From NCBI GenBank assembly GCA_964020085.1, contig OZ026605.1, positions 330,701 to 394,700 on the forward strand: a DNA stretch of 64,000 bases, read 5' to 3'. A program made the position numbers and the translations under genes. This document shows positions 1,976 to 34,639 of the stretch, piece after piece. The notes under the pieces were generated by a model that did no database searches, was not told the DNA's origin, and saw only the letters and a list, made by a program, of their open reading frames with translations. Positions within the stretch are counted from its first letter, which is position 1. The number at the start of each line of letters is the position of its first letter. This DNA is from Micromussa lordhowensis. Taxonomy: Eukaryota; Cnidaria; Anthozoa; Scleractinia; Lobophylliidae.

Positions 1976-2170
1976 AATTACAGACTGGATGTCTCCCTTT
2001 GCATTGTACGTTATCAACCCAAAGATTTCTGCAGGAATCGAACTCTCTCAGACCTTTTGAAACACAAGGGTAAGTATTCCTGGCAATGCGATCATGCGCA
2101 TTTGGACTTTCAAGGAACCCATTTCCTTTACTCGTGTGGTTACTCTCTTGACTAATGCTCTCTTCAGCTT
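1976..2170 (-). pseudogene. Truncated copy of the secreted 8-cysteine gene family
   Basis: On the minus strand this stretch reads in frame from the pro-region motif EESISQESNHTS through the R-I-A-R site into the first four cysteines of the mature domain, closely matching exon 2 of the gene at 2988-3443. Homology stops just after the fourth cysteine, where the frame runs into unrelated sequence, and on the 5' side before the signal peptide. The last four cysteines, the signal peptide and the first exon are missing, so it is a relic. Many aligned residues remain unchanged, so the loss looks recent. I do not know whether it is transcribed. Confidence 0.75.
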
Positions 2171-2987
2171 CTGGGTGGCGTAATGGAACACGGTGGACAA
2201 CTGAAGGTTAATGTATGCTGATAATACCGTCATCTATTATGCAGCCTCACATGCAAATCAGCTGGAGTGAGTGTTGAATTCTGACCTCAAGTTCCTTCAC
2301 GATTGGTCTACCAAGAACGAACTTTTCATCCTAAGAAACTGCTTATGTGATCTTTGGAACCGTTATGTATATGCATATGTCACATGACCTGCATCCGTGT
2401 TGGAAGTAGTACAAGTATTAGTATTGTAAGTAGTGTAAGTAATCATATTGTAATGTAGATAATTTAAGTAATGTAGTGTAAAAAACAAGCAATTTCACCC
2501 AATTATTACTAATGAGAGAGAGGTTCAAATGAAATTTGTGAATGGGATTTGCTCTGCTGAATGTAAATAATGAGGCGTATATTAATAGCGATCACAAATA
2601 CGTTGGTCTTGACTTGGGTTGTAGCTAACCTTCATGTTCATGTTCAATTTAAACTCACATTTCAAACCTGGGACTAAAAAAAAAATTAACATGCAATCTT
2701 CAAGAAATGAAAAAATGTCTGATGACATTTTTAACATTTGTGCAATATAAAATCAGACAACGGCAAAAGATAATTTCAAGGGATGCTCCCCTCGTGTTGT
2801 TACATCATGTTAATACATCTCCAATCTTTCACAGACTCTAATTCAACTTTATTTTCAAAACCTCCTCATCATTAAAACAGACCAGCTGTTTACAATATCC
2901 CCAGAAATATACATAGTACTTTTCTAAGCCTTAAAAAGGCTTTATAGTACAGTGTTGATACATGTAGGATAACATTTTCTGTCAAGT

Positions 2988-3796
2988 TTAAGAGGCACAT
3001 TGACAATCTATTGGCAATGCAAAACATTTATTCATGAACTTAGTATTTTTGAATCCGTACACTGTGTGGCACTTAGGTACTCTGTGTATCGGTATCACAT
3101 AATTACAGGCTGTATGTCTTCCTTTACATTCTACCTTATAAACCCAGAGATTTCTACAGGAATCGAACTCTCTCACAACTTTTGAAACACAAGGGTGAGC
3201 ATTCCTGGCAATACGATCATGCGCAGTTTGGCGTTCCAGGAACCCATTTCCTATACTCGTGTGGTTACTCTCTTGACTAATGCTCTCTTCAGGTTCAATG
3301 GCATCGACTACAGGCTGAGAGTCTTGACCTTGTGAATGCTGATTGAAGAAGACCTGGCTGCGAAGAAATGGCATCTCCGAGGAAAGAGGTTTTGCACACA
3401 CCACGTTGAAATAGGTGAAGACAAAAGCCATAGATATAATTATCTATGCAACCACAAAAACAACCAAAAACATCAAACGTAGATCAAAACGTTTAACACA
3501 ACAAGAATACTTTCATCTAAATTTTGTTAATTCTTGTATGTAAAAGTCTGTTAAAACTTATTATTAAAATATTTTTCCGCGAGCGTTGCCAAATGCGAAA
3601 TATATCTTACATGTGAACATGAAAGTTTCAGAAAAATTATGTAAAATACCTATCCGCAAAAGTTGCCCACTGTTAATTGGTTTGTAACTTAAGAACAAAA
3701 ACAAATAGATTAAACGATGAAATCGAGTTTAAATACGTTCAGCTTTTCACGGTCTAATTAATTGAAATGTTTACTTACTTTTACCGCAAAGTTCAT
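2988..3796 (-). CDS. Secreted 8-cysteine pro-protein, paralog A (minus-type; IL-17-like cystine-knot candidate)
   Basis: Two coding exons on the minus strand: 3796-3779 (MNFAVK) then a GTAAGT donor, and 3443-2988 after a TGCATAG acceptor, joined in phase 0 to give 157 residues. Residues 1 to about 23 form a hydrophobic signal peptide split by the intron. A pro-region follows with the family motif EMPFLRSQ and an N-H-T glycosylation sequon. Then comes R-I-A-R, a minimal furin-type site, directly before the mature domain with eight cysteines spaced 10-9-6-11-14-6-1. The likely role is a secreted signalling or defence peptide; the C-terminal DCQCAS recalls the C-x-C end of IL-17 cytokines, but I cannot confirm the family. 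A TATA-like box lies 114 bases upstream of the ATG and TTTATT (reverse AATAAA) lies at 2848-2853. This minus-type subfamily lacks the N-A-T sequon of the plus-type. A secreted toxin-like or antimicrobial peptide is an alternative. Confidence 0.8.
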
Positions 3797-3909
3797 CCTG
3801 CAATTCAACTGATTGAAGATCTTGTCTCGTAAATTTTTAGTTTGCTTGGGCTCTGTGGACTCCTACAATGTTTTAGATAGTATATAACTAAGTATGAAAG
3901 AAATGATGC

Positions 3910-3918
3910 TTATATAAG
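3910..3918 (-). promoter_or_regulatory. TATA-like box of paralog A
   Basis: CTTATATAA on the minus strand, 114 bases upstream of the ATG. The same box sits at the same distance upstream of paralogs B and D, in a well-conserved block. Confidence 0.4.
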
Positions 3919-5573
3919 TACAGGAAAAACCTTAAATATTCAACACAGGACTGCAATTCCCCACTTCATTGCTTAACATTCCAAAATAGTTCTCAGTGTG
4001 TTATCATCATTTCCTATCCCTATCAGTAGCACTGTCGTTATCAGTTAGATGCAAGGGAATGGAAACTTATAAACCCTTTCAATAACAGACAGTCCTGAGC
4101 ACAATTTGCGCTAAAGACTAACAATTACTTTCAGAAGTTTCAGTTGGAACTTCTTCACTTAAAATTTCTAGACTTAAAAGGAAACGGTTGTTAAAGTGAT
4201 TGATGTATTTTCGGTTACAATATTTTTTTCAAAGCTGGAATTTAAGACATGCGAATACCACTAGAACGGTTCGAACCTCAGTTTATGACGTAAAACAGTT
4301 TTTGAGATTACAGCTCGTTGCCGGTAGCATCGCTATTTTAAGCGCACGACTTGAAATGTTTGATCAACGAAATTGTTAAATTTATATATGGTAAAACAAA
4401 GTAACAAAATGAGCCCCTTGAAAGTCGTCATGATCATGAAATAAGTAATAATTTTATTGCAAAAGAGGAAACCCAATCATGCACAATACCTTCATTATTA
4501 GTCAGACCATAAAACGATCTGCCAATATTTCAAATGATATGTTTCTACGATTTGTAGAATAACGTTAAGTCGATAAAATTTAAAACAGTAGTTGAGTTTA
4601 AGAAAGGAAAACACCAAATACAAATACAAGACTGAAAAAATCAAGAATTTGGCGACTCTGTAGATAGATTACAAAGAGAATTAGAAAGATTTGATGGAAA
4701 CGTTAGGCTAAATATTCAGTAGAAGACGCCCAACTTGAAATGTGACTGTATTCCTCTAAACATGTTGCTTTACTTACCTCTCAAGTCGAAGAATGAAGTT
4801 CCTTTACTTTTTTGTTTACCTTGGAGGACTGAACTCAACACATAGCGTTCATCCCAATGGAAGGCGATTTTTATACTTTTTCATTCTTAATTTATCGGCT
4901 CCATTGTTCATATGCACACCATTTGGGCAAGGGGCGAAACCAATCTACCGTGTGCACATCAAATTTCATGACATCATTGGATAAACGTTATTCCACCGTA
5001 AAACGTTATGTTTCACAAAGTGTAATGTTCTTTCTTTATGTTGCAGATAATTGAAGGGCTCGAGTTTTGAATTTTTGAAAATAGTTTGAAAGAGAAAAGG
5101 CAGTGTGTTTCGATTTTGTCAAGAGGTTGAGAAAAACAGTCAATTTTTTTTCGTTCTTTTAGGAAACTCCGAATGTTTGCCAAATGTATAGAGAATAGGG
5201 GAATCCTTGTTTACAATATTTGCCTCATTAGCATAAGCAATTCAGTTTTTGATGAAGCTACAAATAAATCAGTTCTGAATATTGAAAGGTCATAGTACGA
5301 TTAACTCTGCCAGTGAATATGATATGAACCTGATGTATTGAATACTTTTTGTGCAACACGGGTTTAAAAACTCAAAATTTAACAAAGAATGCATGAGCTC
5401 ATTAGCGCTTTTGCCACCCAGAAATTTTGCAGTTTTTGAAAGACAATTTCTCCTTGAATATTACACCTAAAGAGCGAGAAAATTTCACCATGTACTAAGT
5501 TTCACTAGCTCTTTACCTGCCTGAAGTCAGTTCTTACCTAACATGTTTTCTTCTGTACGCAAAGCCTTATGCA

Positions 5574-5605
<32 letters not shown>

Positions 5606-6290
5606 TGAATCCGCCTATAGACTCCATCTTGAATCAGTGACCTAATCTTATAAGTGGAAAGGGTTTTGCCATTCAAATTCACCTAAACTTTGAACGCTTT
5701 TCAACTATCAACTAATATCACACTGCCTGTTACTATTGCTGCAAGTGAAGAAATCCCTCAAAGCCATTTTGTTTTATTAAAACTAAGATTTGTTATGGTG
5801 CATTTCTCGGCTTCCGTGTTCAATTGTTGAATTACTACAGATATAGGGCTGAAACGAAATGAAACGAGAATTAGATCTGCCCTTACACTCCCCCAGCCTC
5901 TGGCTTGCTTACTTTACTACATAAAACTCCCGTGGGTTAAAACACACTCATTAAAATGCAAACAAAGCGCGCCAAACCTTCTACGTTAAAAGACATCTCT
6001 TCCACTTAACATGCGCGTGCGCGTGCGCATGCTCAAATAGAATTCAACGTATCACACGAGATAATTTGTTCAGACATTATACTTGCTGCGTAAGCACATC
6101 TCAAAGCGTATTCTTTGGCCATGGCGCTTTCATATGTTCTGTGTGCTATCTAATAAGGCAATATTCTCTTGGTGTGAGATAAACTTAGTCCAACCTTTTT
6201 TTTCCTACATAGATTGCCAACGTTTAATAAAATCAATCTAATATCATACATACATATACTTTATTTAACCTCGAATTTAGAGTAGCTAAA
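3919..6290. other. Duplicated 5' flank of paralog A, no gene seen
   Basis: This stretch aligns by eye with the upstream flanks of paralogs B (about 10350-12345) and D (about 18420-20455), with many small indels. It holds a conserved splice-donor-like motif near 4779-4790 (minus) discussed in the findings, and an alternating GCGCGTGCGC tract near 6011-6031. I find no convincing coding exon. Confidence 0.5.
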
Positions 6291-6319
6291 AGATAAGCTA
6301 GTATCTTCGAGTTTCAAGT

Positions 6320-6905
6320 ATAATTCTAAATACTACTAAAATGGAAAATGATAATATATGAAAAAGAGTCATACTGTAGAATCTTGCGCTTGAAATCAGG
6401 AAAGTCAGACGTTCTGAAAGAATCCGGAAGAGAGTTCCATAGTGTTGAAGACATGTATGAAAAGAAGTGAAGACCATAAGTAGTGCTTTTTGTAGACGGT
6501 AGAGACAAAACATAATTACCGCGTAGGCTATAGGATACAGACCGAAACTAAACATATTCCTTAGATAGTCAGGATAGCAGGTAAAAAACAAGCTCTTCTA
6601 CAATATAATTAAGAAAGTCTGAAGACGTATTTTATACAGATCTAGAGATTTGGAGTTAACTTTCAATTGCTAAGTAAAGATTCATATGGAGAATTATAAT
6701 CCTACAAGATAAATCTAGTTGTTTAAAGTATCTATCTTCTCAGTACTAGGCGCACCCCAAAAATGCCATACAGACGAACAATAGTTAAAATGTGGCATAA
6801 TAAAAGCCTTATATAAGTTTAGTAGAGTATCTTTAGAGATAAGTTTACGAAATCTTAACATTACATTGAACTGACCATGAAAAAACACTGCAGGTAAAAA
6901 CACTG
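6320..6905 (-). mobile_element. Degenerate LINE reverse-transcriptase 3' fragment
   Basis: Two overlapping minus-strand frames carry motifs typical of the C-terminal end of non-LTR reverse transcriptases. Upstream, near 6720-6860, is an AFIMPHFNYCSSVWHFWG-type segment. Downstream, near 6380-6480, is a GLHFFSYMSSTLWNSLPDSF segment followed by FKRKI. The frame is interrupted between them and no 5' part is present, so this is a dead, truncated insertion. The motif assignment rests on general knowledge of LINE ORF2 C-termini. Confidence 0.7.
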
Positions 6906-7680: not shown

Positions 7681-7739
7681 GGAGACCGCGAGCCTGTTAT
7701 CTAGCTTACTGTATTCATGTAAGATGTAAGGACAGAAAA

Positions 7740-8080: not shown

Positions 8081-8088
8081 TAATGAAG

Positions 8089-9262: not shown

Positions 9263-10228
9263 TTAAGAGGCACATTGACAATCTATTGGCAATGCAGAAC
9301 ATTTGTTCACGAACTTAGTATTTCTGAATCCGTACACTGTGTGGCACTTTGGTACTCTGTGTACAGATATCACATAATTACAGGCTGGGTGTCTTCCTTT
9401 ACATTCTACCTTATTAACCCAGAGATTTCTACAGGAATCGAACTCTCTCACAACTTTTGAAACACAAGGGTGAGCATTCCTGGCAATGCGATCATGCTCA
9501 GTTGGGCGTTCCAGGAACCCGATTACATCACTCGTGTGGTTCCTCTCTTGACTAATGCTCTCTTCAAGTTCAATGGCATCGACTGCAGGCTGGGAGTCTT
9601 GACCTTGTGAATGCTGATTGACGACCTGGCTGCGAAGAAATGGCATCTCCGAGGAAAGAGGTTTTGCACACACCCCGTAGAAAAAGACAACGACAAACGC
9701 CATACATAGCATTATCTATGTAAACACAAAAACAATAAAAAACAATGAATGTAAATCAAAATATCGAGCCCAGCAACACTTTCGCAACACTTTTGTTTAC
9801 ATTCCGTTACTTCTGATATTAAAAAGATATAACGAAGAGACAAGTTCCCTGTTACTCCGAGTTTCGTGCTCACGCACTCATGTTTAATGGCATTAGCCAC
9901 TTTATTACACGTATACTTCTGATATTAAAAGTCTTGTTATCTGGTTTGTAACTTCAGAAAACAACAAGTAAATTAAACAAATATTTGTTTGATTACTGGC
10001 CCGCCTAGACTAGCATAGCTATCCGCTGGCCAGTCCAGCTGTATGTAAATTAAGAAATGAAATGATTTATATAAAGTTTACGTTCTTAAAAGACAGATTA
10101 ATATATTTTTATAAGCTAGTCGATGACAGAGCCTTACAAGAGAATTATATATACTGGAATACTTCGTTGGAGTATAGTTCTGCATTGTTCATAGCCTTCA
10201 AGTGACTTACTTTTACCGCAAAGTTCAT
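9263..10228 (-). CDS. Secreted 8-cysteine pro-protein, paralog B (minus-type)
   Basis: Exon 1 is 10228-10211 (MNFAVK, donor GTAAGT) and exon 2 is 9715-9263 after a TACATAG acceptor, phase 0, giving 156 residues. It has a split signal peptide, EMPFLRSQ motif, N-H-T sequon and R-I-A-R site followed by the invariant eight-cysteine domain ending DCQCAS. Its pro-region differs from A and D by several replacements, such as E-R for E-S before NHT, and has lost the phenylalanine in RSQ-x-F. The polyadenylation signal is TTTATT at 9089-9094. It is arranged head-to-head with paralog C about 4.6 kb away, and the whole pair is duplicated as D/E. The mature-domain fold is inferred from cysteines only. Confidence 0.8.
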
Positions 10229-10341
10229 CCTGCAATTCAACTGATTGAAGATCTTGTCTCGTAAATTTTCAGTTTGCTTGGACTCTGTGGACTCCTACAA
10301 TGTTTTAGATAGTATATAACTAAGTATGAAAGAAATGATGC

Positions 10342-10350
10342 TTATATAAG
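10342..10350 (-). promoter_or_regulatory. TATA-like box of paralog B
   Basis: CTTATATAA on minus, again 114 bases upstream of the ATG as in A and D. Confidence 0.4.
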
Positions 10351-13300
10351 TACAGGAAAAACCTTAAATATTCAACACAGGACTCCAATTCCCCACTTCA
10401 TTGCTTAAACATTCCAAAATAGTTCTCAGTATGTTTTCATCATTTCCTATCCGTGTCAGTAACACTGTTGTTATCAGGTAGATGCAAGGGAATGGAAACT
10501 TATAAAGTTTATACATCGCAGAATATCAGTTTTAATAACTTATGATTACTTTTAGAAGTTTTAGAACTTCAGTTCTTAACTTCAAATTGCTACATTTTTA
10601 AACGAACAGTTCTTAAAGTGATTGATGTATTTTCCGTTTCAATAATTCTTCACTGAAAGCTGGGCTGATAAAGAAATCATGTGAATACCACTCGAACGGT
10701 TCGAAACTCAGTTTTATGACGTAAACCGTTTTTGAAATCACAGCTTGTTGCTGGTAGCATCGCTATTTTAAGTGCATGACTTGGAATGGGTTTTTCACGA
10801 AATTGTTAAGGGTATAAAAACTAAAACCAAGTAATAAAATATCACATTACAAAACCTCAACAGTATGAAATAAGTATTAACTTTAGTGCAAAATGGAAAA
10901 CCTGATCATCTTTATTCTTACTAGTAAGATGATAAGACGTTCTGCCTCAATATCAAGTGATATGATCTTTGAGAAATAACGCTAAATCGAGGAACTTTAA
11001 AACAGTAGTTTAGTTTAAGAAAAATAAATAAATAGAAAAAAAAACCCACAAATTTGGCGACTCTGCAGATATATTATAAAAAAGAATTAGAAAAGAAACC
11101 TGAGTCTAAATTGTCAGCAGAAGACGCCCAACTTGAAATGTGACTGTATTCCTTCCTTTCCTTTACTTACCTCTAAAGTCGAAGAATCAAGTTCCTTTAC
11201 TGTTTTGTGGTTTACCTTGGAGTACTAAACTCAACACATAGCGTTCATCCCAATGGAAGTCGATTTTTATACTTTTTCATTCTTAATTTATTCGGCTCCA
11301 TTGCTGAACGAAGCGTATTCTAGACCCCACCTACACGAACGGAAGTTTAATCAACTCTTTCCTATTTTTAACTGCTCAGCATAATTTCATTCATATGCAC
11401 ACCACTTAAGCAAGGAGCCATGCCAATCGACCGTGTCCACATCAAATTTCATGACATCATTGAACAAACGTTATGGCTCTGTGAAACATTTTGTTTAACA
11501 ACGTGTAGTATCCTTTCTTTAGGTAGAAGGTACTTTTAGGGCTCGATTTTTGAACTCTTGAAAATAGTTTGAAAGAGAAAAGGCAGTCGATTTTATCTAG
11601 AAGTTGTGAAAAACAGTCACTTTTTTCTTTTTGTAAGGAAAGTCCGAATGTTTACCAAATGTATAGAGACTAGACTCCCTCTTGAATCAGTGACGTAATC
11701 TATCTTGTAAGTGGCCGAGAAAGGGCTTTGCGATTCAAACGGATCTAAACTTTGAACGCTTTTCAATTATAATACCACACTGCCTGTTACTACTGCTGCA
11801 AGTGACAAAATCCCTGAAAGCCATTTGATTCTATTACAACTAAGATTTATTATGGTGGATTTCTCGGCTTCCCTATTCAATTTTGAATCACTACAAATAT
11901 AGGGCTAAAACGACATGAAACGCGGTATTAGATTTGCCCTTGGTAGGCAAATACTCCCCCAGCCTCTGGCTTGCTTACTTTACTATAAAAAGCTCCCGTG
12001 GGTTAAAACACACTCATTAAAATACAAACAAAGCGCGCCAAACCTTCTACATTAAAACATATCTCTTCCACTTAACATGCGCGTGCGCATGCTAAAATAG
12101 CTCCTTTCCTTTCAACGCGGGGGAGGTGACTCTCGAGCGGAAGCTAACATTTGCCATCGTAGCTAACTGTTTGTCCCCGAATATACTTTTTTCAACGTAT
12201 CACAGGAGATAACTTGTTCAGACATTATACTCGCTGTGTAAGGACATCTTAAAGCGTTTTCTTTGGCGAACGTTCATGTGTCCTGTGCAGTAGCTAATAA
12301 GACAATATTCTTTTGGTTTAAGATAAACCTAGTCGGAATTTTTATAAATTAAAATGATAACGTCGAATGAAGTAAATCTTATATCAGGAAACTCGGTCCA
12401 GGTTTATTCTGGTGTCTTTTTAGTCTTGGTATTTCACACAACGCCGGGCAAAAATGACGCAAAAGGTGACATCATGGGATATTTACGGCTGCTAAGGCGG
12501 ATGCTGTGTCAAGCCATTTCTGAATTAAGTCGCCAATGTTTGTCGGAATAAATAATGAACCACCCAGCCCGCTGTAATATACACCTGAAATTGATATATC
12601 AGCGACAGAGCTATCGAGTTATGCCAAACTTAGCAAACTTTAATTTAAGGGTTTACCATTCAAGGCCGCTTTTACAATCTTCTGTCCTAAAACAGAAGTC
12701 TAAATAGGATTGTGCCTTCCGTCGCGTACTACACATTGCTTGATAAACTGATTACTGACTAACCAAGTTATTTTTCGTAATTTTTATGTTTAATTTGCCG
12801 GTTTCTCAATTTGTCAGATTAATTTTAACGTCAACAAACACCCTGGAAAAACAAACAGACACCTGAAAATAAATTTGAATAATAACGAAAACAATCTTGA
12901 TCATCTTTCTCTTTCATGGGTTATACTTAACTGACCTTAGTGGAACTTTTTTCCGGTTTTCCACGTATAAATAGGGATTTAGAGCCTTAAACATCTATCA
13001 GGATTTAATAAATAAATCAATTTTACACAGCTTTTAACGAGGATGATGAAAACAACGCTTTCGAATCATGAGTATTTCAGTGCCTTATAATCTAAAGATG
13101 CGTATAACTTGTCCTTAATTCAATTAACCACTTATGGTATTCAGACGATATAAACGTACGTCATCTAACTAAGTGCTTATCGCTAAATTACGTCATAGTT
13201 CCCGCCTTTTCTTGCTTGTCAGAATAGAGCTATTAATGTCGAAGAAACTGTTCGTTTTGGTAGAAAAATGCCTGTCGCTGTAGCGAACCAAACAACGGCG

Positions 13301-14818: not shown

Positions 14819-15502
14819 ATGAATATTCTTGTACACGTAAAAGTAAGTATTGATGACCTCAGGCTGGCAGGCTGGAATAACCGACAGCGCCATATTTTAT
14901 GAACACAAGTAGTTTTCCAGCAAAATGTGTAGGGTCCTTTAACCGACCGGAAAAGAGAGAAAAACATTACAGAAATCGGCTGGGTTCAACTCCGATATAA
15001 AGCATTTAACTCATTTTTTCATTTCTTGTAAATTTTTGTTTTTGTTTTTAATGTTTAGGTGCTCCTATCATTGGCGTTTGTCTTCAACCTGGCTTTTGCA
15101 AAACCCTTTTACCCGGAGATGCCATTTCTTCGCAGCCAGGCCTTCAATCAGAATTCACAAGGTCAAGACTCCCAGACTGTAGTCGATGCCATTGAACCCG
15201 AAGAGAGCATTAGTCAAGAGAGTAACCACACGAGTAAAGAAAATGGGATCCTGGAAAGTCCAAATGCGCATGATCGCATTGCCAGGAATACTCACCCTTG
15301 TGTTTCAAGAGTTGTGAGAGATTTCGATTCGTGTAGAAATATCTGGGTTGACAAGGTACAGTGTAAAAGACGACATCCCGCCTGTAGTCACGTGGTTAGC
15401 ACACACGGATCACCAAAGTGCCAACCAGTGTACGGTTTCAGAAATGCTACGTTCGTTACCAAATGTCCTTCGTTACCAATAGATTGTCAATGTGCTATAT
15501 AA
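14819..15502 (+). CDS. Secreted 8-cysteine pro-protein, paralog C (plus-type)
   Basis: Exon 1 is 14819-14842 (MNILVHVK, donor GTAAGT) and exon 2 is 15059-15502 after TTTAG, phase 0, giving 155 residues. The signal peptide covers residues 1-22. The pro-region has EMPFLRSQ and N-H-T, R-I-A-R lies at residues 81-84, and the first cysteine is residue 89. The eight cysteines use spacing 10-9-6-11-14-6-1 and end DCQCAI. Unlike the minus-type genes, the loop before cysteine 6 carries an N-A-T glycosylation sequon. Overlapping AATAAA signals lie at 15603-15612. It is nearly identical to paralog E, differing at only a handful of pro-region residues and none in the mature domain. Function is likely an extracellular signalling or defence peptide; IL-17-like cystine-knot is a tentative reading. 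Confidence 0.82.
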
Positions 15503-17363: not shown

Positions 17364-18297
17364 TTAAGAGGCACATTGACAATCTATTGGCAATGCAGAA
17401 CATTTGTTCGCGAATTTAGTATTTCTGAATCCGTACACTGCTTGACACTTTGGTACTCTGTGTACAGGTATCACATAATTACAGGCTGGGTGTCTTCCTT
17501 TACATTCTACCTTATCAACCCAGAGATTTCTACAGGAATCGAACCCTCTCACAACTTTTGAAACACAAGGGTGAGCATTCCTAGTAATGCGATCATGCGC
17601 ATTTGGACTTTCCAGGAACCCGATTACATCACTCGTGTGGTTACTCTCTTGACTAATGCTCTCTTCAGGTTCAATGGCATCGACTACAGGCTGGGAGTCT
17701 TGTGAATGCTGATTGAAGACCTGGCTGCGAAGAAATGGCATCTCCGAGGAAAGAGGTTTTGCACACACCCCGTAGAAATAGACAACGACAAACGCCATAG
17801 ATAGCATTATCTATGTAAACACAAAAACAATAAAAAACAATGAATGTAAATCAAAATATTGAGCACAACACGTAACACTTTTGTGTACATTCCGTTACTT
17901 TTGATCTGAATATTCTGTTAAAACTTGTCGTTAAAACATCTATACGCAAATGTTGACCACTATTTGATTTGTAACTTCAGAAAACACACAAATAAATTAA
18001 GCAAATATCTGTTTAATTAGTGGCCCGCCTAGACTAGTATAGCTATCCGCGGGCCAGTCCAACTGTAAAATGTAAATTAAGAAATAAAATAATTGATTGA
18101 TTTGTTGAAATAGAAACGTCCAGCTTTTCACGCGATTTATATAAAGTTTACGTCTTAAAAGCCAGATTAATGTATTTTTTTTAAGCTAGTCGATGACAGA
18201 GCCTTTCATTTATATATATATATTGGAATACTTCGTTGGAGTATAGTTCTGCATTGTTCATAGCCTTCAAGTGACTTACTTTTACCGCAAGGTTCAT
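17364..18297 (-). CDS. Secreted 8-cysteine pro-protein, paralog D (minus-type)
   Basis: Exon 1 is 18297-18280 (MNLAVK, donor GTAAGT) and exon 2 is 17810-17364 after TACATAG, phase 0, giving 154 residues. The layout matches A and B: split signal peptide, EMPFLRSQ, N-H-T, then R-I-T-R in place of R-I-A-R, which keeps the convertase pattern, and the invariant eight-cysteine domain ending DCQCAS. The pro-region has lost the three residues G-Q-D found in the other copies. The polyadenylation signal is TTTATT at 17175-17180. Tail-to-tail with C and head-to-head with E. Confidence 0.8.
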
Positions 18298-18410
18298 CCT
18301 GCAATTCAACTGATTGAAGATCTTGTCTCGTAAATTTTCAGTTTGCTTGGGCTCTGTGGACTCCTACAATGTTTTAGATAGTATATAACTAAGTATGAAA
18401 GAAATGATGC

Positions 18411-18418
18411 TTATATAA
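18411..18418 (-). promoter_or_regulatory. TATA-like box of paralog D
   Basis: TTATATAA, 114 bases upstream of the ATG, the same spacing as in A and B. Confidence 0.4.
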
Positions 18419-21205
18419 GTACAGGAAAAACCTTAAATATTCAACACAGGACTGCAATTCCCCCACTTCATTGCTTAGACATTCCAAAATAGTTCTCAGT
18501 ATATTTTCATCATTTCCTATCCGCGTCAGTAACACTGTTAAGTTATCAGGTAGATGCAAGGGAATGGAAACTTATAATTATACATCGCAGTATTTAATTT
18601 CAAATAACTTATAATTATTTTTAGAAGTTTTAGAACTTCAGTTCTTAACTTCAAATTGTTACATTTTTAAACGAACAGTTCTTAAAGTGATTGATGTATT
18701 TTCCGTTTCAATAATTCTTCACTGAAAGCTGGGCTGATAAAGAAATCATGTGAATACCACTCGAACGTTTCGAAACTCAGTTTTATGACGTAAACCGTTT
18801 TTGAGATCACAGCTTGTTTCTGGTAGCATCGCTATTTTAAATACATGACTTGGAATGGTTTTCCACGAGATTGTTAGAGATATAAAAACTAAAACAAATA
18901 ATAAAATATCATATTGAAAATCCCCAACAGTATGAAATAAGTAATAAATTTAGTGGAAAAGGGAAAGCCTAATCATACACCAAATTGTCATTCTTACTAG
19001 TAAGACGATAAGACGTCCTGCCTATATATCAAGTGATACGTTCTCACGATTTGAGAAATAATGTTAAATCGAGGAACTTTAAAACAGTCGTGGAGTTAAA
19101 GAAAAAAAGTATCAAAGATAAATGTAAAACTGAGAAAGATCAAAAGCTTGTCGACTCTGCAGATAGATTAGAAACAGAGTTAGAAAGAGAAACGTGATGG
19201 AAACGTTAGCTAAATTGTCAGCAGAAGACACCCAACTTGAAGTGTGACTGTATTCCTCTAAACATGTTGCTTTACTTACCTCTAAAGTCGAAGGATCAAG
19301 TTCCTTTACTGTTTCGTGGTTCACTTTTTAGTACTGAATTAACTCAACACATAGCGTTCATTCTAATAGAACTCAATTTTTATACTTTTTCATTCTTAAT
19401 TTATTCGGCTCGATTGCTGAACGAAGCGTGTTATAGACCCCACCTACACGAACGGAAGTTTAATCAACTCTCTCCTATGTTTTACTGCTCAGGATAATTT
19501 CGTTCATATGCACACCACTTAGGCAAGGAGCCATGCCAATCGACCGTGTGCACATCAAATTTCATGACATCATTGGACAAATGTTATGGCTCCGTAAAAT
19601 ATTATGTTTAGAGAGTAATATCTTTTCTTTTTGCTGCAGATAATTTGAGGGCTCGATTTTTGAACTCATGAAAATAGTTTGAAAGAGAAAAGGCAGTGTG
19701 TTTCGATTTTGTCAAGAAGTTGTAAAGAACAGTCACTTTTTTTATTTTTTTTTTAGGAAAGTTCCAACCGTTACAAATGGATAGAGACTAGACTCCCTCT
19801 TGAATCAGTGATGTAATCTATCTTGGTAAGTGCCCGAAAGGTCTTTGCGATTCAAACGGATCTAAACTTTGAATGCTTTTCAGCTATAATATCACACGTC
19901 CTGTTACTATATTGCTACAAATGAAGAAATACCTCAAAGCCATTTTATTTTATTAGAACTAAGATATTTCTCGGCTTCCGTATTCAATTGTTGAATCACT
20001 ACAGATATAGGGCTGAAACGAGATGAAACGCGGTATTAGATTTGCCCTTGGTAGGCAAATACTCCCCCAGCCTCTGGCTTGCTTACTTTACTATAAAAAA
20101 AATTTCCTTGGGTTAAAACACACTCATTAAAATACAAACAAAAAGCGCCAAATCTTCTACATTAAAACACATCTCTTGCACTAAAAGTGCGCATACTAAA
20201 ACAGCTCCTTTCCTCGCAACGCGGGGGAGGTGACTCTCGAGCGGAAGCTAACATTTGCCATCGTATCCAACTGTTTGTCCCCAAATAGACTTTTTTCAAC
20301 GTATTACAGGAGATAATTTCTTCAGACATTATACTCGCTGTGTAAGCACATCTTAAAGCGTTTTCTTTGGCGAACTTTCTTCTGTTCTGTGCGATAACTA
20401 ATATGACAATATTGTTATGGTTTAAAATAAACCTAGTCGGAGTTTTTATACATAAAAATACTGACGTTGAATAAAATAAATCTTATATCAGGAATCACGC
20501 TGTAGTTTTTAGTTGATTCTGGTGTCTTTTTCTGGATATTTCACAGAACGCCGGGCAAAAATGACGCAAAAGGTGGCATCATGATCATGGGATATTTACG
20601 GCTTCTAAAGCGGATGCTGTGTCAAGTCATTTCTGAATTGAGTCGCCAATGTTTACCGGAAGAAATAATGAACCACCCAGCTCGCTGTAATATACACCTG
20701 AAATTGATATATCAGCGACAGAACTATCGAGTTATGTCAAGCTTGAATTAAAGGTTTACCATTCAACCATTCATTTTTTTAAAGCAGAAAAGTCTAAATC
20801 GAGATGTTGCTTTTCGTTCTGTAGTACCCATTGTCCGATAAACAGATTAACTAAGCAATTTATTTTCCGTAATTTTTATGTTTAATTTCCCGGTTTATCA
20901 ATTTGTCAGATTAATTACAACGTCAACAAACACCCTGGAAGAACAAACAGACACCCGAAAATAAATTTAAATAATTATAGAAAACAAACGGTTTGATCAT
21001 CTTTCTTTATCATGGGTCTATATTTAACTGACCTTGGTGGAAATTTTTTCCGGTTTTCCACGAATAAATAGGGATGAGAGTATCTATAGCATCCAGCAGG
21101 ATTTAATGAATAAATCTATTTTACACAGCTTTAAACGAGGATGATGAAAACCGTGCTTTCGAGTATCTCATGCCTTAATCTAAAGATGCGTATAATTTGT
21201 CCTTA

Positions 21206-21488
21206 AAGGGCAAGTTTCTAAAACTCTTGAACATAAATTTAGTTTTCAAATGGGCACCCTTAATCGACACGGTATCAACGAACGCTTTTCATTCAACTAA
21301 TTCATTCTGTTGTTTTTCACGTTGCCAGGAACCAACCAATAGCGTAGCTCCATATTTCTGTATATAAACCACACACAACCCACAATTCCTTGATTCGCTC
21401 CAACGAAGGGCTAACGCTCGAAACGTCAGCTTCCGAATCTCTTTACGGTGGACAATTCACATTATCAACCCAGTTGATAAAACCAAAT
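21206..21488 (+). mobile_element. Truncated Penelope-like retroelement end
   Basis: A 283-bp insertion flanked by TAATTTGTCCTTA on both sides (21193-21205 and 21489-21501) and absent from the paralogous site near 13103. Near its 3' end the plus strand can be read as SNEGLTLETSASESL, a phrase I associate with the C-terminal/terminal-repeat region of Penelope-like elements. The same bases (21401-21429) resemble the core of the hammerhead ribozyme of such elements, with a GGGC/GCTC stem and GAAAC, but the first core box is CCAACGA rather than CTGACGA. The family name is from recalled motifs, the insertion itself is directly visible. Confidence 0.6.
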
Positions 21489-23563: not shown

Positions 23564-24202
23564 ATGAATATTCTTGTACACGTAAAAGTAAGTATTGATG
23601 ACCTCAGGCTGGCAGGCTTGAATAACCGACAGCCCTATATTTTATGAAAACACGCAGTTTTCAAACAAAATGTGTAGGGTTCTTGAACCGACCGGAAAAG
23701 CGAGAAAAACATCAACAGAACTAACTCATTTTTTTCATTACTTGTATTTTGTAAATAGGTGCTCCTATCATTGGCGTTTGTCTTCAACCTGGCTTTTGCA
23801 AAACCCCTTTACCCGGAGATGCCATTTCTTCGCAGCCAGGCCTTCAATCAACATTCACAAGGTCAAGACTCTCAGCCTGTAGTCGATGCCATTGAACTTG
23901 AAGAGAGCATTAGTCAAGAGAGTAACCACACGAGTAAAGAAAATGGGATCCTGGAAAGTCCAAATGCGCATGATCGCATTGCCAGGAACACTCACCCTTG
24001 TGTTTCAAGAGTTGTGAGAGATTTTGATTCGTGTAGAAATATCTGGGTTGACAAGGTACAGTGTAAAAGACGACATCCCGCCTGTAGTCACGTGGTTAGC
24101 ACACACGGATCACCAAAGTGCCAACCAGTGTACGGTTTCAGAAATGCTACGTTCGTTACCAAATGTCCTTCGTTACCAATAGATTGTCAATGTGCTATAT
24201 AA
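23564..24202 (+). CDS. Secreted 8-cysteine pro-protein, paralog E (plus-type)
   Basis: Exon 1 is 23564-23587 (MNILVHVK, donor GTAAGT) and exon 2 is 23759-24202 after AATAG, phase 0, giving 155 residues. It is almost identical to paralog C; changes are confined to the pro-region (for example F to L in K-P-x-Y-P-E and P to L in I-E-x-E-E), and the mature domain from R-I-A-R onward is unchanged. It keeps the N-A-T sequon and the DCQCAI end. The intron, 171 bp, is the shortest in the cluster. AATAAA lies at 24303-24308, and a downstream 210-bp tandem duplication supplies two further potential poly(A) regions. Confidence 0.82.
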
Positions 24203-24775: not shown

Positions 24776-25927
24776 TAATGATCAAGGCGCGTGTGGAAGT
24801 ACATTTCATTTAACTGAAGTAAGAGACCTGTGATCTTGTTAACAGTGATCTTTCCTTCAGTAAGTTTGGGCTCTGTACATATAGTTTCTGCAACGATCCT
24901 TATTGACCGACATGCCAAAAAACAAGTCTGATCCCTGCGATGAAAACAAGCCTGGCTCCAACGACATAAGTCTCGGTTCAAGCTGTTTTATGAAAAAGAA
25001 ACGATTTACCCAGCACTTATGAACTAACTTTAACACAAACAGACTCATTGACGGATTCTCTGACACTGTTGTATGAGCCTGCCTTCCCCCTTCACTTAAA
25101 GGTTGCGTCATGGCTTGCGTATTCTTGAGCATTCTTTAAGTCAGTTTTTTCTAATCCGTGTTAATTTTCTCCATCCTTAACCATGCATCCTTGTTCCTTT
25201 ATCGTTTATTAATATCTCTGAAGTGCTTTTTTATATTAGTAAATTTTTTCAGGTTTTCTTCAATTAAAGGAAGTTTTTACCCTGGCCAAAATTACTCAAA
25301 GTATCGTGACTGAGCTTCATTAAGCCTGAAAACTATCGAGGTTCACTGATATGTTGCAGTCTAACGCCTATCCGTTACATTATTTCCATTGGAAGGCGGA
25401 AGTGTAAACGATATTCGAGACTGAAGGGGTCGTCGTTGAAAACAATGACGTCATACGCGTAGCATGTCTGATAACTAAACATTATCTAGTAACATTAGAA
25501 TCGACTACTGTTTTTTTTTTTTGTAGACATTAAATTAAAGGAATATGCATTGCAAAGCTAGATGGTCTTTTCAACTGGTTATTTTTTTAAAACAAAGAAC
25601 GACAACTTGTTTCATAATTTAACTGGTCGTTACCCAACTAATTAAAGGTAAATCGTTGTTTATTCAAATGACTTATCTGATGTAATTGAACCCAAATAGA
25701 ATCTGTAGTTTCAAAACTCTTCACGTTGCATAAAAGGATTCACAGGTCACATATCGTGAATTTTTTTCACGTTATCTAATTATTTTGTGGCATATTTAGC
25801 AAATTGGAAAGACCGTTAAAGATTTCCGTGTACTCGCGAATTTTTTCCAGTTGATATCCAACGTAACATTGCTGGTGCTTCAGCAACAGCGTGAAATACT
25901 CCAAGGACAATTAATTGAACTTGCAAG

Positions 25928-25951
25928 ATGACTATTGTTGTACATGTAAAA
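25928..25951 (+). pseudogene. Stranded first exon of a lost family member
   Basis: ATG followed by seven codons (MTIVVHVK) and GTAAGT, the same exon-donor arrangement as exon 1 of C, E and F, with a related upstream flank. No matching exon 2 follows: from 26268 the sequence is already the 3' flank seen after paralog C. A second ATG-containing stretch with a GTAAGT donor (about 26143-26172) lies between but does not resemble the family. Either exon 2 was deleted or this exon serves as an alternative first exon for paralog F, 3.2 kb downstream. Confidence 0.55.
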
Positions 25952-26267
25952 GTAAGTATTGAGTTTAATTACCACTAACTGAGATAGACTGTTAAACAGT
26001 CGTATATTTTACGAACGCTTGCAGTTTTCGAACAAAAGCTGTGGGAACAAGAATCGACGCGAAAAGCAACAAAAACCCCGATTTTGCACTGTAGAGTTCT
26101 GGCTCCCTCGCAGCCGTTATAAGCTTTGCGACCCAAATAACGATGACAATTTTAATCATTACTGGAATTGCAGTAAGTATATCAAGGGATGAAGTTTTAA
26201 GTTTCTTTCTTCGACTAGGTACAATATTGTGATAAATTAATCTTGCTTTGTGGAGTGTTCAGCGTAC

Positions 26268-28084: not shown

Positions 28085-28182
28085 AGCAGCATTTTTCCTT
28101 TGAAACCATGAAACATCGTTGGTGCTACAGTAACGAGTAAAATACTTTGAGGACACAGCTTCAATTCGGTTGAATTTGCAGG

Positions 28183-29571
28183 ATGAAGATAACAGTACAC
28201 GTGAAGGTAAGTACCCTGCGAGGGTACTTTAGAACTTTCTGGGTAGGGATATGCCGCTGGAACCCTCAGCCTATATCAGAGCTAGTTAAGCTAGTTAAGT
28301 TACCACAAGTCTCTCTCCAAAAAGGATTTATTAATACTTGCTCAATTTGTTTTATATACCCTATCCTAAAGTAAACTGCTTGAAAATCATTCCCCTACAC
28401 AACGGCACATCCCCAGATAGCCCATATATGGCAGTTCAATGAAACACGACTGACTTAAAATATACCTCAAAACAGCTTACATTGCAAAGTTCAACAAGAG
28501 TTAAAGATATTGAAGATCCGTTACCAGGATTCATGCTAAAAAATAAGTAAAAACGTTCACTGGTAAAAGGTTTGAAAAAACTATGAGCTTTCGGCAGCCT
28601 AAACTGCTGCCTTCGACGGATTAATCATGATATTGACTTTAACAATTCTAAAATCATTGACAAAGCGAACAACCGGAGTAGAAAGACACTGGAGTCTTCG
28701 CACACGGCAAAAACTGTTGGGGCAGACAATAATTCGTGCCCGCTCCCAAGACAATATCACATTCTCTTAAAGAAACACTAATTTTCTTAGCATTTTTAAC
28801 ATTTTTTCTACTACATGCCTTTATCTTTTAATTTATGCGAATTTTTCGTTATATTTAAATTTCTTTCACTTTTAGGCTTCACACATTTTTATCCGTCGAA
28901 GGCAGCAGTTTAGGCTGCCGAAAGCTCATAGTATTTTCAAACCTTTTACCAGTGAACGTTTTTACTTATTTTTAAGAGTTAAAGACTTTCACATGCAAAA
29001 AATACAAGAATTGGTGATGATAAAATATTTTCACTCTTTAGACTATATGTATTTTTTCTTGTTGAACTCAACTCAACTCATTATTTATCGAACAGTTTTT
29101 CTCTTTTCTTTCTAAAAGGTGCTTCTATCTATGGCGTTTCTATTCAACCTTTTCAACCTGGTTTTTACGAAACCCCTTTACCCGGAGACGCCATTTCTTC
29201 GCAGCCAGGCCTTCAATCAGCATTCACGAGGTCAAGACTCCCAGCCTGTAGTCGATACCATTGAGCCTGAAGAGAGCATTAGTCAAGAGAGTAACCACAC
29301 GAGTGATATAAACGGGTTCCTGGAAAGTCCAAATGCGCATGATCGCATTGCCAGGAATACTCACCCTTGTGTTTCAAGAGTTGTGAGAGATTTTGATTCG
29401 TGTAGAAATATCTGGGTTGACAAGGTACAGTGTAAAAGACGACATCCCGCCTGTAGTCACGTGGTTAGCTCACACGGATCACCAAAGTGCCAACCAGTGT
29501 ACGGCTTCAGAAATGCTACGTTCGTTACCAAATGTCCTTCGTTACCAATAGATTGTCAATGTGCTATATAA
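28183..29571 (+). CDS. Secreted 8-cysteine pro-protein, paralog F (plus-type)
   Basis: Exon 1 is 28183-28206 (MKITVHVK, donor GTAAGT) and exon 2 is 29119-29571 after AAAAG, phase 0, giving 158 residues. The signal-peptide core is longer than in C and E because of a repeated F-N-L. The pro-region has P-E-T-P-F-L-R-S-Q, N-H-T and R-I-A-R. The mature domain is the same as in C and E except for single replacements, with N-A-T and DCQCAI. The 912-bp intron is the longest in the family and contains a hairpin MITE (28537-28974). AATAAA lies at 29738-29743. Exon 2 is far more similar to C and E than the flanks are, suggesting gene conversion. Confidence 0.82.
28537..28974. mobile_element. MITE with about 86-bp terminal inverted repeats, in the intron of paralog F
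   Basis: The left arm, from AAATAAGTAAAAACGTTCAC through GGCAGCCTAAACTGCTGCC to CGACGGAT, is mirrored by 28889-28974 with few mismatches. The single strand can fold into a long hairpin. AAGAGTTAAAGA occurs near 28496 and 28974; it may be a duplicated flank but does not abut the left arm. No coding frame. Confidence 0.85.
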
Positions 29572-30214
29572 TAAAAAGAAATGTCCTTCGAATTCGTTAC
29601 CAACAGATATTGCAAATATGCCGCTTGAAGGAATTCTGGAAATAAATGCTTATTAATTTAAAACAGCAAAATGTATATTAACAACTGAATATTCCTATTT
29701 AATTTTTACAAGTAACAGTTAAAAAGCCGGCACGGTAAATAAATGAAGCCTGGTCGACTCAGGATTAAAACTGAATTATGTATTAAGTAAATTGCTGCTT
29801 TTTTCTAATAATAAAGCAGAATGTGGAAATAAATTTCATTCAGAGTGCATAGTGGTCTTTTCTCAGTTAGTTTCGACTCTTTGCATGTCGTTTTTGCAAC
29901 GATCCTTAATGACCGAATTCGGCAACAAAGATAATTTTTAAGACACGGGAAAAAAAGATGTCTTAGCCCTGCGTTGAAAACAAGTTTGGTTCCAACGTGA
30001 TATGATACGGAAGAAGGAAGGTTGAGGCGAGCAAAGAAACTGAGTCCAAACCGAGAATTAACTGAAAGTTTCGAATATGCTATTTGTACTTAAATTATAG
30101 TGTTTAAAGTGGATGGGTTAAATTGATTTAATGCGTTGATTGTTTAAAATATAACAATCTTTGGACACAACTGGATACAATTATCCTACTGCTCTTCTGT
30201 TTAAAGCAATACTA

Positions 30215-30620
30215 CTCAAGTTAATCTGTACAAGCTCCAAGCAGTACAGACGTTTGCTTGTCGCATTTTAATTTTGTGCGGCGCTACAAAAATTCGATCG
30301 CATAACGCCTTTGCTGGCTACCAATCAAGCAACAAATTTATTTCCATTTTGCTGTTCTGGTTCTTAAGTCAATGAAGGGGTGTGCTCCACAGTATTTGAC
30401 ATCTAAGCTCGCTGGAAGATCCGCCGTCCAGCCGAATACGACTACCAGGAACTCTCAACGTTTGAACATACCACTCTTCCGCACTGCTAGAGCTGTGCTA
30501 GCGGCCAAAGGACCTTTCACTGTGGAATGAGTTACAGCCTGCGCTCAAACTTACCCATCCTTGACCGATTTCAAGCCCTTACATGAAATGTCATGTGTTT
30601 GGCTTTCTGCGTTTTCTTTT
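30215..30620 (+). mobile_element. LINE reverse-transcriptase C-terminal remnant
   Basis: The plus strand reads LQAVQTFACRILILCGATKI, then after frame breaks KGCAPQYLTSKLAGRS, and finally AAKGPFTVE, a stop, and TDFKPL. This order matches the usual tail of non-LTR reverse transcriptases (Q-N-R-A-R, P-Y-L, G-R-F-S, L-W-N, F-K). Stops and frameshifts make it dead. AATAAA follows near 30675. Confidence 0.65.
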
Positions 30621-31705
30621 TAAATCGTTTTCCAATGTAACATTGACTCTGAAAGGCCTCGTGGGGACGAGCCAATAAAATATGTATCTACCTGCAGATA
30701 ATGTCAATGGAAGAACAGTCAAAAACACTGTGCTGATTGAATAGCAACATTGACAGTACAACGGTTAAGAACCTAAAGCGTCAGAAATCATTCCAAGATT
30801 ACTTCTGACAGTTTTGAACAAGGGTTTTAGAGCTACCATGTTACACTGATTGGTGGACACTAGTAGGATGTTATTGGTTCAAGTGGTTTTATTAAAAATA
30901 AACAAAGTTTTTATTAGATTTACCTGACCATGACTATGAATCAACTTAAACGCAAGCGGATTTAGCAACGGATTTATGGCAACAGTGCACGAACCTTCTT
31001 TCAACCGTCACTTTAGGCTGAAAACTCTCACTCTTACATTACTTTCATTATGGTAAATCGGAAGCGTAAACAATATTTCATTGCTCGACGGAAGTAGTCG
31101 TCGTTGAAAAGAAAGACGTCCTACGCGAAGCAGATCAAAGATGCAAACAATAAGCTATTTCTCGTTTCCGAAGCTGGTGTTTTGATATCTTGTGCATGAG
31201 AAGTCGTGACGGGGATTTGTGCTAATGCGCCGCTTTGCGCCACACTGATCCACTCAGTTGCCAGAGCCTGGGGTGTTTATTTCGTCCTGGCGAGGTGTAG
31301 TACTGAACCTATTGTAAAAGAGAAAGGGCTCATTAATTTAAGTTGTCTACACAAATATCAGTTATTACAGTCAGCACACTTCGAAATGTAGCTAGGGGCA
31401 CTCCCTTATATCGGCTATCTAGGTATGTCCAGCCTCATAGGGTATGGTTTTAAGACTTTTTGGTCAGAAATAGAGTATTGATTTTGGTCACTGGGTATGC
31501 TTTTTATGCACTCGTCTTAAATTAGGTATGACGTTTTTAGAAGCATACTTTTTCATCATTATCGACAACACCAGCAACTAAAGCCATTCACAATACCTTT
31601 AACATCATTCTGAACTAGGGAACTAAGGCAGGTCTGAAACAGGATATTAATATAAGGGTCAGGTCACAAATAGGGTAGAAAATTACAGATTATGGTCTTA
31701 AATAG

Positions 31706-31799
31706 GGTTAATTTGCTGTGCGGCCCGCTTCCCGAAGCACTAATTATTTGAAGCACTAATTATTTAATTTGCTGTGCGGCCCGCTTCCCGAAGCACTAA
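31706..31799. repeat. Short tandem duplication
   Basis: TTTGCTGTGCGGCCCGCTTC followed by CCGAAGCACTAA occurs twice, at 31711 and about 31769, separated by a doubled GAAGCACTAATTATTT word. No function evident. Confidence 0.8.
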
Positions 31800-33685
31800 A
31801 AGTGTTATGTGTGAGCTAAATAAAGCTAAGAGGCAAAAGCACTTGATGCATTGTTTTTCAATCTCTGTGTCAGGCAGGGCTTGATTCGAATGGATGCGGC
31901 CGCATTCTACGTCTTGTTGTCAGTGACGCAGTATATTTTTCTTTTTAAAAAGGATGTCTTATGTGTGCTGACAATTGTGCACTTAATCCTCCGCTTTTGC
32001 TTGAATATTAGGAAGCTAAAATACAAATGCTATCGGTATTTTCATGGAAACCAGCTCTTGAAATGCCGCGGTACGTCAAAGTACAGATTTTCTTACTTTT
32101 ATAAGCGCTCTCTCAGAAGTAAAGCTACTCGAGTTGTGGCGGAAAGTTTGACAAATCTAACTAAATCTGGAACTGATATGTCGACACCTACGGTATAGAG
32201 AAAACCTTATACGAAAGCCATTTGAATATACCAACGTAAATTAAAATACAATATGATGAATTATCTTTCATAATATATCGTATCTGTAGTATCGTCCAAG
32301 CCGGCGCTCCAAGTGACGTGTGCGTCCTTTTCTCGTAAAAAGCCACAGCAGAAAAGGGGCGGGATTGTTTTTCCTGACAAGTGTTCTGATTGACCAAAAT
32401 TATGTCGCCACAGTTGTGATCTTAATAACATTCAAGCACGGAAGCAGATATCTTCGATTCTCTAGAATTCATCGTTTCAATCTGACTTAGAACCATTTAG
32501 TTACCAAGATTCTAAGTTCCTTTTGTTTTTAAATTTAGTCTCAACACTGAGTTATTTTTGCTGAACATGTTTACCTTGTGAATTACAAGCGTTACCCTGA
32601 GGGTGATTCATACTTACTATATATGTCAATAACTCACTCTGAAATAGAAAACAGAACCATTTCTTTGTTGAAGTAAACTAAACTAACTGCTTCCATCGGC
32701 TCAAAATATCGCATTGGTGGACAAATCGCGTGTTGTGGTGGTGGCTCTATCTCGAAAATATATTTCCTTTTCATTATCACTATCCGATTGGAAGTCCCGT
32801 CCGTAGTTTTCTTGTGTAAAATAATCACGGGAAACATACCAGGTAACAACTGAAATGTTGCAAATGCACATTTTGTTGCGAGGCACCGAATTTTGGCAAA
32901 ACTTGGCCGCCGTATCTACATTAACAATTACGAATTTTCTCTGATTGGACATTAACTGCACTATGTAAATAGTTCACTTCTGAACTGAAAATAATATCGT
33001 TTCGTTTCTGAGGAAACGAAACAAAAAGCATATCGAATAACATCACAAACGACGTGTGTTTCCTTTAGCCTTTTGACTTCATTCAAAAGGAATGTGCACT
33101 ATAAGCTATTGTAGATGGGGTGGTAAACTGGTTCTTATAAAGAGGATTAAAGGTAACCCAGCTGATTTCAGATGAATCATTGCCAGTATTCCAGTGACCT
33201 ATCTGATCTACAATTGAACCCTTCAAGTCTACTACGCAGGAGCCCAAGTGGAATTTATAGTTTCAAAATTTCCGCATGTTGTAAAAAAACGATTCGAAGA
33301 TCATCCAGCAGAAATGTTTTGCTCGTGTTCTAATCAGTATTTTTTGGCATTTATGGAAGATTGGAAAGACGTAAACGATTTTTGAAATTGTTTTTTTTAG
33401 TTTAAAATTTAAAATTTAAACGCGCAATTGTTTATGGTGTCAATTGTGAGTGTTATTACTGAAGGGAAAAATACTGAACAGATTATTCAAGTTGTTATTA
33501 AAGAACGCGAAACAAAATATGATCAGCACATAAGAATTCGGCTTTACACTGACCTCTGAATCAATGAATTAAAAGAATGCTTTATATCTTTGACGTACTG
33601 TGACATTTTGAACCAGTCAGCAACTTTATTACAACATTTTCAGTGAAAATACAAATTCCCCGTGTTATCAGCCAGTCTTCCCGAC

Positions 33686-33693
33686 TATATAAA
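33686..33693 (+). promoter_or_regulatory. TATA box of paralog G
   Basis: TATATAAA, 161 bases upstream of the proposed exon 1 ATG, farther than in the other paralogs. Confidence 0.4.
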
Positions 33694-33846
33694 AGAAAGA
33701 ATGGATTTGGTGGCACTACACAGTTGCATCTCAAGACTTACAAGCCCCGGGAAAAAACCCAGGTTGTCTATCGAATTCGACTTCTTCAACGCGACCAAAG
33801 TGAGATCTGCAGGTTTTTCGATAGGAGTGAATTTCAAAGTTCCAAC

Positions 33847-34639
33847 ATGAACATCATCATAAAGGTGCGTTTTACTGTATTATGAATACTTATCCCCGAT
33901 GTCACTTATTCTCTCTTGATTACATATTACTTCCGTTGATTGCAGCCTTGTTTAAAGACGTAAATTTTATTACTTTCCGGCCAATGAAACAACGGAGAAA
34001 AGAATAATTTCTTGGTTAATTCTAAGCGAATACTGGGACAAAACCAATATGGCTTTAACTTAGCTGGGAGAAGAAGCGGAAGATACGGGTAAGCAAAAGT
34101 CATCAAAAGTAACGCTGCTGCAACGGTTTAAAATTTCGCTATTCGCCCCTAACGTATATTGTTTGGCTGTTGTCACCACAGGAAACGCATTTTTTCAGTC
34201 GAAAATGAATTGTTTTGTTTCACAGATGCTTTTGTGTATGGCTTTTGTCTTAAGTTTTTCCAGACCGATTGCTGCAAAAACTCTTTTTCTAGAGTTGCCA
34301 TGGCAACGAAGCCAGGCTGTCGAGGCTCTTGAACCAGGGAGAAGCATTAACCAAGAGAGTGACAAAGCAAGTAAAGTGAATGGGTTTGTGGAGAGTTCAA
34401 CTGCGCATAATCGCACTACCAGGAACGTTCACCCGTGTATTTCAGGAATAGTTAGAGAGTACGACTGGTGCAGAGGTCGCTGGATTGTAAAGGTGCAGTG
34501 TAATAGAAGACATCCTGCCTGTAATCACGTAATAACCAAACACAGGATACCTAAGTGTCAAACAGTGCACGGCTTTAGAAATGCTACGTTTGTGAATAAA
34601 TGTCCTTCGTTGCCATTAGATTGTCAATGTGCCTCTTAA
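33847..34639 (+). CDS. Secreted 8-cysteine pro-protein, paralog G (divergent)
   Basis: Exon 1 is 33847-33864 (MNIIIK, donor GTGCGT) and exon 2 is 34226-34639 after TTTCACAG, phase 0, giving 143 residues. The in-frame ATG at 34226 means exon 2 could alternatively start on its own, or an upstream in-frame ATG near 34163 could give a longer N-terminus; I prefer the spliced model because it matches the six paralogs. The pro-region is about 15 residues shorter, keeps only R-S-Q of the FLRSQ motif and lacks N-H-T. The R-T-T-R site and all eight cysteines with exact spacing are kept. It has the plus-type N-A-T sequon but the minus-type CAS ending, so it may be the outgroup of both subfamilies. Confidence 0.75.

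Follow-up and report, generated by a model that had tools for sequence, protein, structure and literature searches.

Organization of the array

The locus analysed here raises the question of whether a cluster of small eight-cysteine proteins in Micromussa lordhowensis belongs to a known class of secreted factors, such as the IL-17 cytokines, or forms a family of its own. The window, the whole 64-kb stretch of DNA that was analysed, holds seven open second exons (as open reading frames) with one layout in 7/7: a hydrophobic N-terminus, a pro-region, an R-[IT]-[AT]-R site and a 71-residue domain (Table 1). Upstream of each lies a short first exon of 6 or 8 codons followed by GT, in agreement with the seven two-exon genes described in an earlier note; the donor is GTAAGT in six of the seven and GTGCGT in m7, and because of this unusual donor the m7 first exon is a probable call, less sure than the other six. 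An MNIAVK start occurs at the matching place in four of six Oculina patagonica proteins (gene models), and all six genes examined have a TATA-like box 87-120 bases ahead of the start codon. Two relics had also been reported; the exon-2 piece was recovered, while the exon-1 piece located here may differ from the second of these.

Inside the array, stretches as long as about 3 kb are duplicated (e.g. 10064-13118 versus 18134-21206, 86.5%), and tandem growth is evident at the sequence level. A loose six-cysteine pattern, run across 182 kb around the locus, matches the seven genes and one neighbour only, which excludes chance; a search of the 581 Mb genome with one member hits the array alone, at eight places (E up to 0.001).

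Table 1. Features of the array and its neighbour; positions are those of the window except in the last row.
Feature	Position	Strand	Description
m1 exon 1	3779..3796	-	MNFAVK, donor GTAAGT
m1 exon 2	2988..3443	-	signal-peptide core, pro-region, RIAR, 8-Cys domain, stop
m2 exon 1	10211..10228	-	MNFAVK, donor GTAAGT
m2 exon 2	9263..9715	-	open frame, Cys pattern
m3 exon 1	14819..14842	+	MNILVHVK, donor GTAAGT
m3 exon 2	15059..15502	+	open frame, Cys pattern
m4 exon 1	18280..18297	-	MNLAVK, donor GTAAGT
m4 exon 2	17364..17810	-	open frame, Cys pattern
m4 mature domain	17367..17579	-	modelled chain, mean pLDDT 94.2
m5 exon 1	23564..23587	+	MNILVHVK, donor GTAAGT
m5 exon 2	23759..24202	+	open frame, Cys pattern
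m6 exon 1	28183..28206	+	MKITVHVK, donor GTAAGT
m6 exon 2	29119..29571	+	open frame from 29116; Cys pattern
m7 exon 1, probable	33847..33864	+	MNIIIK, donor GTGCGT; resembles MKIIIK start of P0106
m7 exon 2	34226..34639	+	open frame from 34064; acceptor inferred
Relic, exon-2 piece (end of pro-region to fourth Cys)	1976..2171	-	tblastn 54-80% identity to 7 members; blastn 72-89%
Relic, exon 1 and intron start only	25916..26076	+	87% to m3 region over 47 bases, 70% to m5 region over 165
Six-Cys neighbour	G000:C11:327899-328339	-	about 2.4 kb left of window start

The mature domain and its proposed function

The cysteine spacing 10-9-6-11-14-6-1 and the C-terminal end D-C-Q-C-A-[SI]-stop are invariant in all seven genes, as first described, and the R-[IT]-[AT]-R site stands four residues before the first cysteine in every one. 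C1, C3, C4, C5, C7 and C8 provide, in order and with a C-x-C end, the six knot cysteines of cystine-knot growth factors. Structure prediction of the domain after R-x-x-R, an approach put forward in the earlier note, gave a model of the m4 chain (mean pLDDT 94.2) whose predicted fold is probably of the cystine-knot class; with Foldseek alone, no cystine-knot factor is among the matches listed for model 1. Over 122 domains the mature part is basic, with a median charge of +6 (range 1 to 11); the pro-region is mostly acidic, at a median of -5 (range -29 to +5). A basic charge is compatible with heparan-binding cytokines as well as with defence peptides.

We lean, with some hesitation, towards a tandem array of seven genes for secreted cystine-knot ligands, which would belong to an uncatalogued family of stony corals; a ligand is favoured by the modelled fold together with the protease site and the pattern of selection. 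The tiny first exon would begin the putative signal peptide, with exon 2 encoding everything else; a disordered, mostly acidic pro-region would be removed by a furin-type protease at R-x-[AT]-R, leaving a basic domain of about 71 residues. C1, C3, C4, C5, C7 and C8 would serve as knot cysteines I-VI, and C2-C6 would form an additional bond; the mature protein would probably dimerize, like IL-17, Spaetzle and NGF, and once released outside the cell would signal via a receptor, its most likely role being in epithelial immunity or tissue response. Corals have Toll-like receptors; their own extracellular signals are poorly known, and the array supplies specific genes that may encode coral cytokines or growth factors, so that corals may possess secreted messengers of their own.

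Divergence within the array

The pro-regions had been described as variable; those of all seven genes do differ, however between m1/m2/m4 and m3/m5/m6 the pro-region is less diverged than the mature domain, with synonymous divergence (nine pairs) of 0.11-0.22 versus 0.43-0.62 in the mature half. Since this difference extends to synonymous sites, protein-level selection is no explanation; gene conversion is suggested, or an exchange of 5' halves, either of which can account for it. Mature domains inside m3/m5/m6 show 0 or 1 amino-acid change. Between the three subgroups the mature-half dN/dS is 0.24-0.44, which points to purifying selection, with no sign of diversifying selection (dN/dS < 0.5); within subgroups the values range from 0 to 0.80, with few changes underlying them.

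The family beyond the window

A profile search of 5.8 billion proteins returns 123 proteins at E up to 10, of which 120 are listed. A second search, started from a divergent alignment, returns 91, 22 of them new. No Pfam domain is recorded among the matches listed in either search. An organism is given for seven listed rows of the first search, six from Oculina patagonica and one from Desmophyllum pertusum, all hypothetical or uncharacterised proteins, and the family would appear to be restricted to stony corals. Eight relatives apparently lie on one contig and six Oculina ones on another, which suggests that arrays exist elsewhere too. The exact spacing 10-9-6-11-14-6-1 is found in 81/142 relatives; in another 28 it appears minus the first cysteine, an R-x-x-R inside the domain having been scored as the cut site, no cut site was found in four, and the remainder are variants, truncated or mis-cut. 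By a looser pattern the full eight-cysteine domain is present in 122/142. Loop length among relatives varies from 9 to 26 residues for C5-C6 and from 8 to 12 for C4-C5, and the pro-region is longer and repeated in several (such as P0121-P0125, P0127 and P0138). Alignments include 26 of 32 representatives, with 64 rows in the first model and 22 in the second, 21 being common to both.

In a tree of 121 mature domains, with many forks left without resolution and m5 equal to m3 in this domain, m3/m6 group with five relatives from other contigs and m7 with seven, both on starred branches; m1/m2/m4 group with three on an unstarred branch (96/77). The m subgroups may therefore be older than Micromussa lordhowensis as a species. 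The P0106 protein joins exon 1 to exon 2, suggesting that some coral transcribes and splices an m7-type gene.

Pfam scans give no match for any of the seven window genes or any of the 23 members of alignment A2 (four of which are window genes); hits to DUF4196 (E 0.012) and Mqo (0.18), each in one member and below the cut-off, are ascribed to chance, as are the weak matches to baculovirus AC109 (best E 0.015) and CFAP115 (best 0.44), found with two of three family profiles in a PDB sequence search. No published description of this coral family was found in open-licence PMC, judged by the titles and abstract openings of the papers listed. On sequence grounds, the seven proteins match no catalogued family.

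Comparison with IL-17

The earlier note had offered the alternatives of an IL-17-like cytokine or an undescribed family; this interpretation is partly supported, the second alternative being favoured, with a fold probably of the knot type, and IL-17 membership is rejected by profile. The Pfam IL17 model (PF06083), proposed as a check, matches none of the window genes or A2 members; in the genome it finds 13 places, none in the array, of which four exceed the cut-off (two on contig C4, one with a stop, and two on C9) and nine lie in one stretch of C9 (E 0.02 to 4.7 there). These nine exons read C-[PS]-W...P...KA.C..C..YCR.V, ending VAFVYDP or similar, and carry no terminal C-x-C as far as the exon goes. 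With hhalign the array family aligns to IL-17s at Prob 1 (P 0.048, nine columns), and to the coral IL-17-type exons alone at 0.24 over 19 columns, versus Prob 95 (E 1.7e-8) for the positive control, the C9 exons against other IL-17s, which is not fully independent as the Pfam IL17 model had served to select these exons. The IL-17 consensus query yielded three IL-17 proteins only, so the IL-17 profile is small.

The array family shares with IL-17 a probable fold class, as modelled, the C-x-C end also seen in most IL-17s, and similar places of D-x-x-R, C-x-P-V-Y and VGC-x-C, motifs taken from passages of PMC4517768. It differs, as had been noticed, in having x6 rather than x4 between the third and fourth cysteines (knot cysteines II and III) and a last hairpin about 10 residues shorter than that of IL-17A; it also has all six knot cysteines and an extra pair, whereas vertebrate IL-17 is without two knot cysteines. 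The CPW/SPW motif of IL-17s, described in passages of PMC8353272, is absent, with C-[VI]-S in all seven genes. The same passages count 3 IL-17s in Nematostella and 11 in Pocillopora; those of PMC4517768 report IL-17 as not found in Nematostella or Hydra.

Scores of IL-17s, Spaetzle and neurotrophins against the family model range from -2.8 to 7.0 bits; the best is a coral IL-17-type exon (L013), a value reached by one of 200 shuffles, and it drops to 2.6 bits once the six-cysteine neighbour joins the model. In a column test with cysteines fixed and the first cysteine as anchor, IL-17 is equalled in 15/600 whole-domain shuffles and 1/600 within segments, and noggin in 2/600 and 3/600; seven families and two anchor choices were tried. 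The motif likeness to IL-17 is real but weak, and is no proof.

That the array is a strongly diverged IL-17 branch of true descent, signalling via SEFIR-type IL-17 receptors, is unlikely: besides the missing Pfam match, the poor hhalign result, the absent CPW and the x6 spacing, Spaetzle ties structurally, and each of the nine coral exons scored lower once the family model included the neighbour. This genome's IL-17-type genes also sit elsewhere than the array and their exons lack the terminal C-x-C, so that under such descent the C-x-C end must predate those exons.

Defence and venom peptides

Tandem expansion and lineage restriction are usual for defence and venom peptides, and the array shows the first and apparently the second. 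Its products could accordingly be read as direct effectors acting on microbes or prey, a basic disulfide-rich domain being released from a mostly acidic pro-region; this is considered improbable, as the model has the fold of signalling factors, which are often basic as well, and mature-half dN/dS stays below 0.5 between subgroups, so that diversifying selection is not seen. Membership of the SCRiP toxin family is rejected: SCRiPs, too, are small proteins secreted by corals that have eight cysteines and mostly carry a protease site; however, passages of PMC2652719 and PMC10892658 give a framework of Cx6-7Cx4-6CPx3-6Cx4-6Cx5-6CCC in a mature part of about 40-48 residues, mostly anionic and with a CCC end, versus 71 residues, a C-x-C end and basic charge in the array.

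Spaetzle, neurotrophins and other cystine-knot factors

Spaetzle has a C-terminal knot domain released by a protease, to which the predicted protease-released C-terminal domain of the array is alike; it is also a tied structural match, with the C-x6-C of fly Spaetzle and a C-x-C-A end. The array domain is, however, about 35 residues shorter than Spaetzle C-106, with a short first hairpin, and the spacing between cysteines II and III is x8 in the Aedes chain. Neurotrophins (NGF, BDNF and NT-3) are larger, with CII-x9-CIII, a long first hairpin and no extra pair. A cnidarian counterpart of Spaetzle or neurotrophins, binding Toll-type or Trk-type receptors, is quite unlikely: hhalign gives no significant match (P 0.07), family-model scores are -2.8 to 5.0 bits with at least 13/200 shuffles as good, NGF and Spaetzle both have a much longer first hairpin, and the identity gap is due partly to the two knot cysteines missing from vertebrate IL-17. 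Neither the Spaetzle nor the NGF model of Pfam matches any of the seven window genes or 23 A2 members.

Noggin and PTTH are also among the closest known systems; noggin kinship was dropped, as noggin gave the best Z in the whole-domain column shuffle yet fell below its own shuffles with the family model. The column test gave no support to TGF-beta or glycoprotein hormones, and none of seven small hand-made families is significant by hhalign. Cystine-knot hormones in cnidarians are described in passages of PMC4079206.

The six-cysteine neighbour

A broader proposal takes the array as a cnidarian branch of the Spaetzle/neurotrophin/IL-17 knot ligands, namely self-made, tandem-expanded ligands of Toll-type receptors with a six-cysteine founder adjoining the array; this is a long shot. 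Passages of PMC2586362, on fly neurotrophins, report that a DNT1 homologue was not found in Nematostella, a search that yielded no ligand of this kind there. The array and the IL-17-type genes on another contig bear on whether Toll/neurotrophin-type ligands predate bilaterians.

In the preferred reading, of an uncatalogued coral ligand family, the neighbour is read as a six-cysteine cousin. Its layout is that of the array, with exon 2 starting after TTTAG inside the putative signal peptide, then a pro-region and RIKR, and Pfam gives no match. Run on the 1169 open frames of at least 50 residues in the 182 kb, the family model ranks the seven genes, the relic and then the neighbour (E 0.012; next frame 0.35), a score reached by none of 1000 shuffles with cysteines fixed. 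The mature part, C-x21-C-x7-C-x11-C-x17-C-x1-C-A, has exactly six cysteines; in the alignment these correspond to C1, C3, C4, C5, C7 and C8 of the array family, which supports C2-C6 as the added bond.

The pro-region and mature halves of the array genes

Between the subgroups m1/m2/m4 and m3/m5/m6, synonymous divergence in the pro-region is about one fifth to two fifths as high as in the mature half, the eight-cysteine domain after the R-x-x-R site (window 2988-29571); this lower divergence in the pro-region points to gene conversion. Within the pro-region of one family branch there are DQETQPQGDAFQPEESINQENDVTSGM-like repeats of variable number, carried by the profile-search relatives P0121-P0125, P0127, P0128, P0132, P0133, P0137 and P0138.

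Neighboring and IL-17-type genes

The six-cysteine gene is probably a diverged relative of the array; its product looks secreted and has an RIKR site, six cysteines and GCSCA at the end, and the pro-protein has no Pfam match. A terminal C-x-C is usual for IL-17, whereas the coral IL-17-type exons of contig C9, as read, lack it and end in VAFVYDP or similar; they feature a CPW motif (n = 9; CSW in one).

Other features of the window

Long open frames overlap in several frames at 39273-40923, with recurring words; the probable explanation is a tandem DNA repeat, not genes. The 176-residue open frame has a hydrophobic start and several cysteines, and no Pfam match. The CFA20-domain exon presumably belongs to a CFAP20DC-like gene.

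Features in the window and elsewhere in its genome (G000; contigs C9 and C11)
Feature	Location	Strand	Details
Six-cysteine pro-protein gene	G000:C11:327899-328339	-	~2.4 kb left of window
Coral IL-17-type exons, arrayed	G000:C9:8279659-8416687		nine: L011-L014, L016-L019, L021
Open frame	window 52133-52663	+	
Direct repeat	window 55463-55885 and 56379-56801		423 bases, 99.3% identical
CFA20-domain exon	window 63208-63888	-	PF05018, E 6.8e-35
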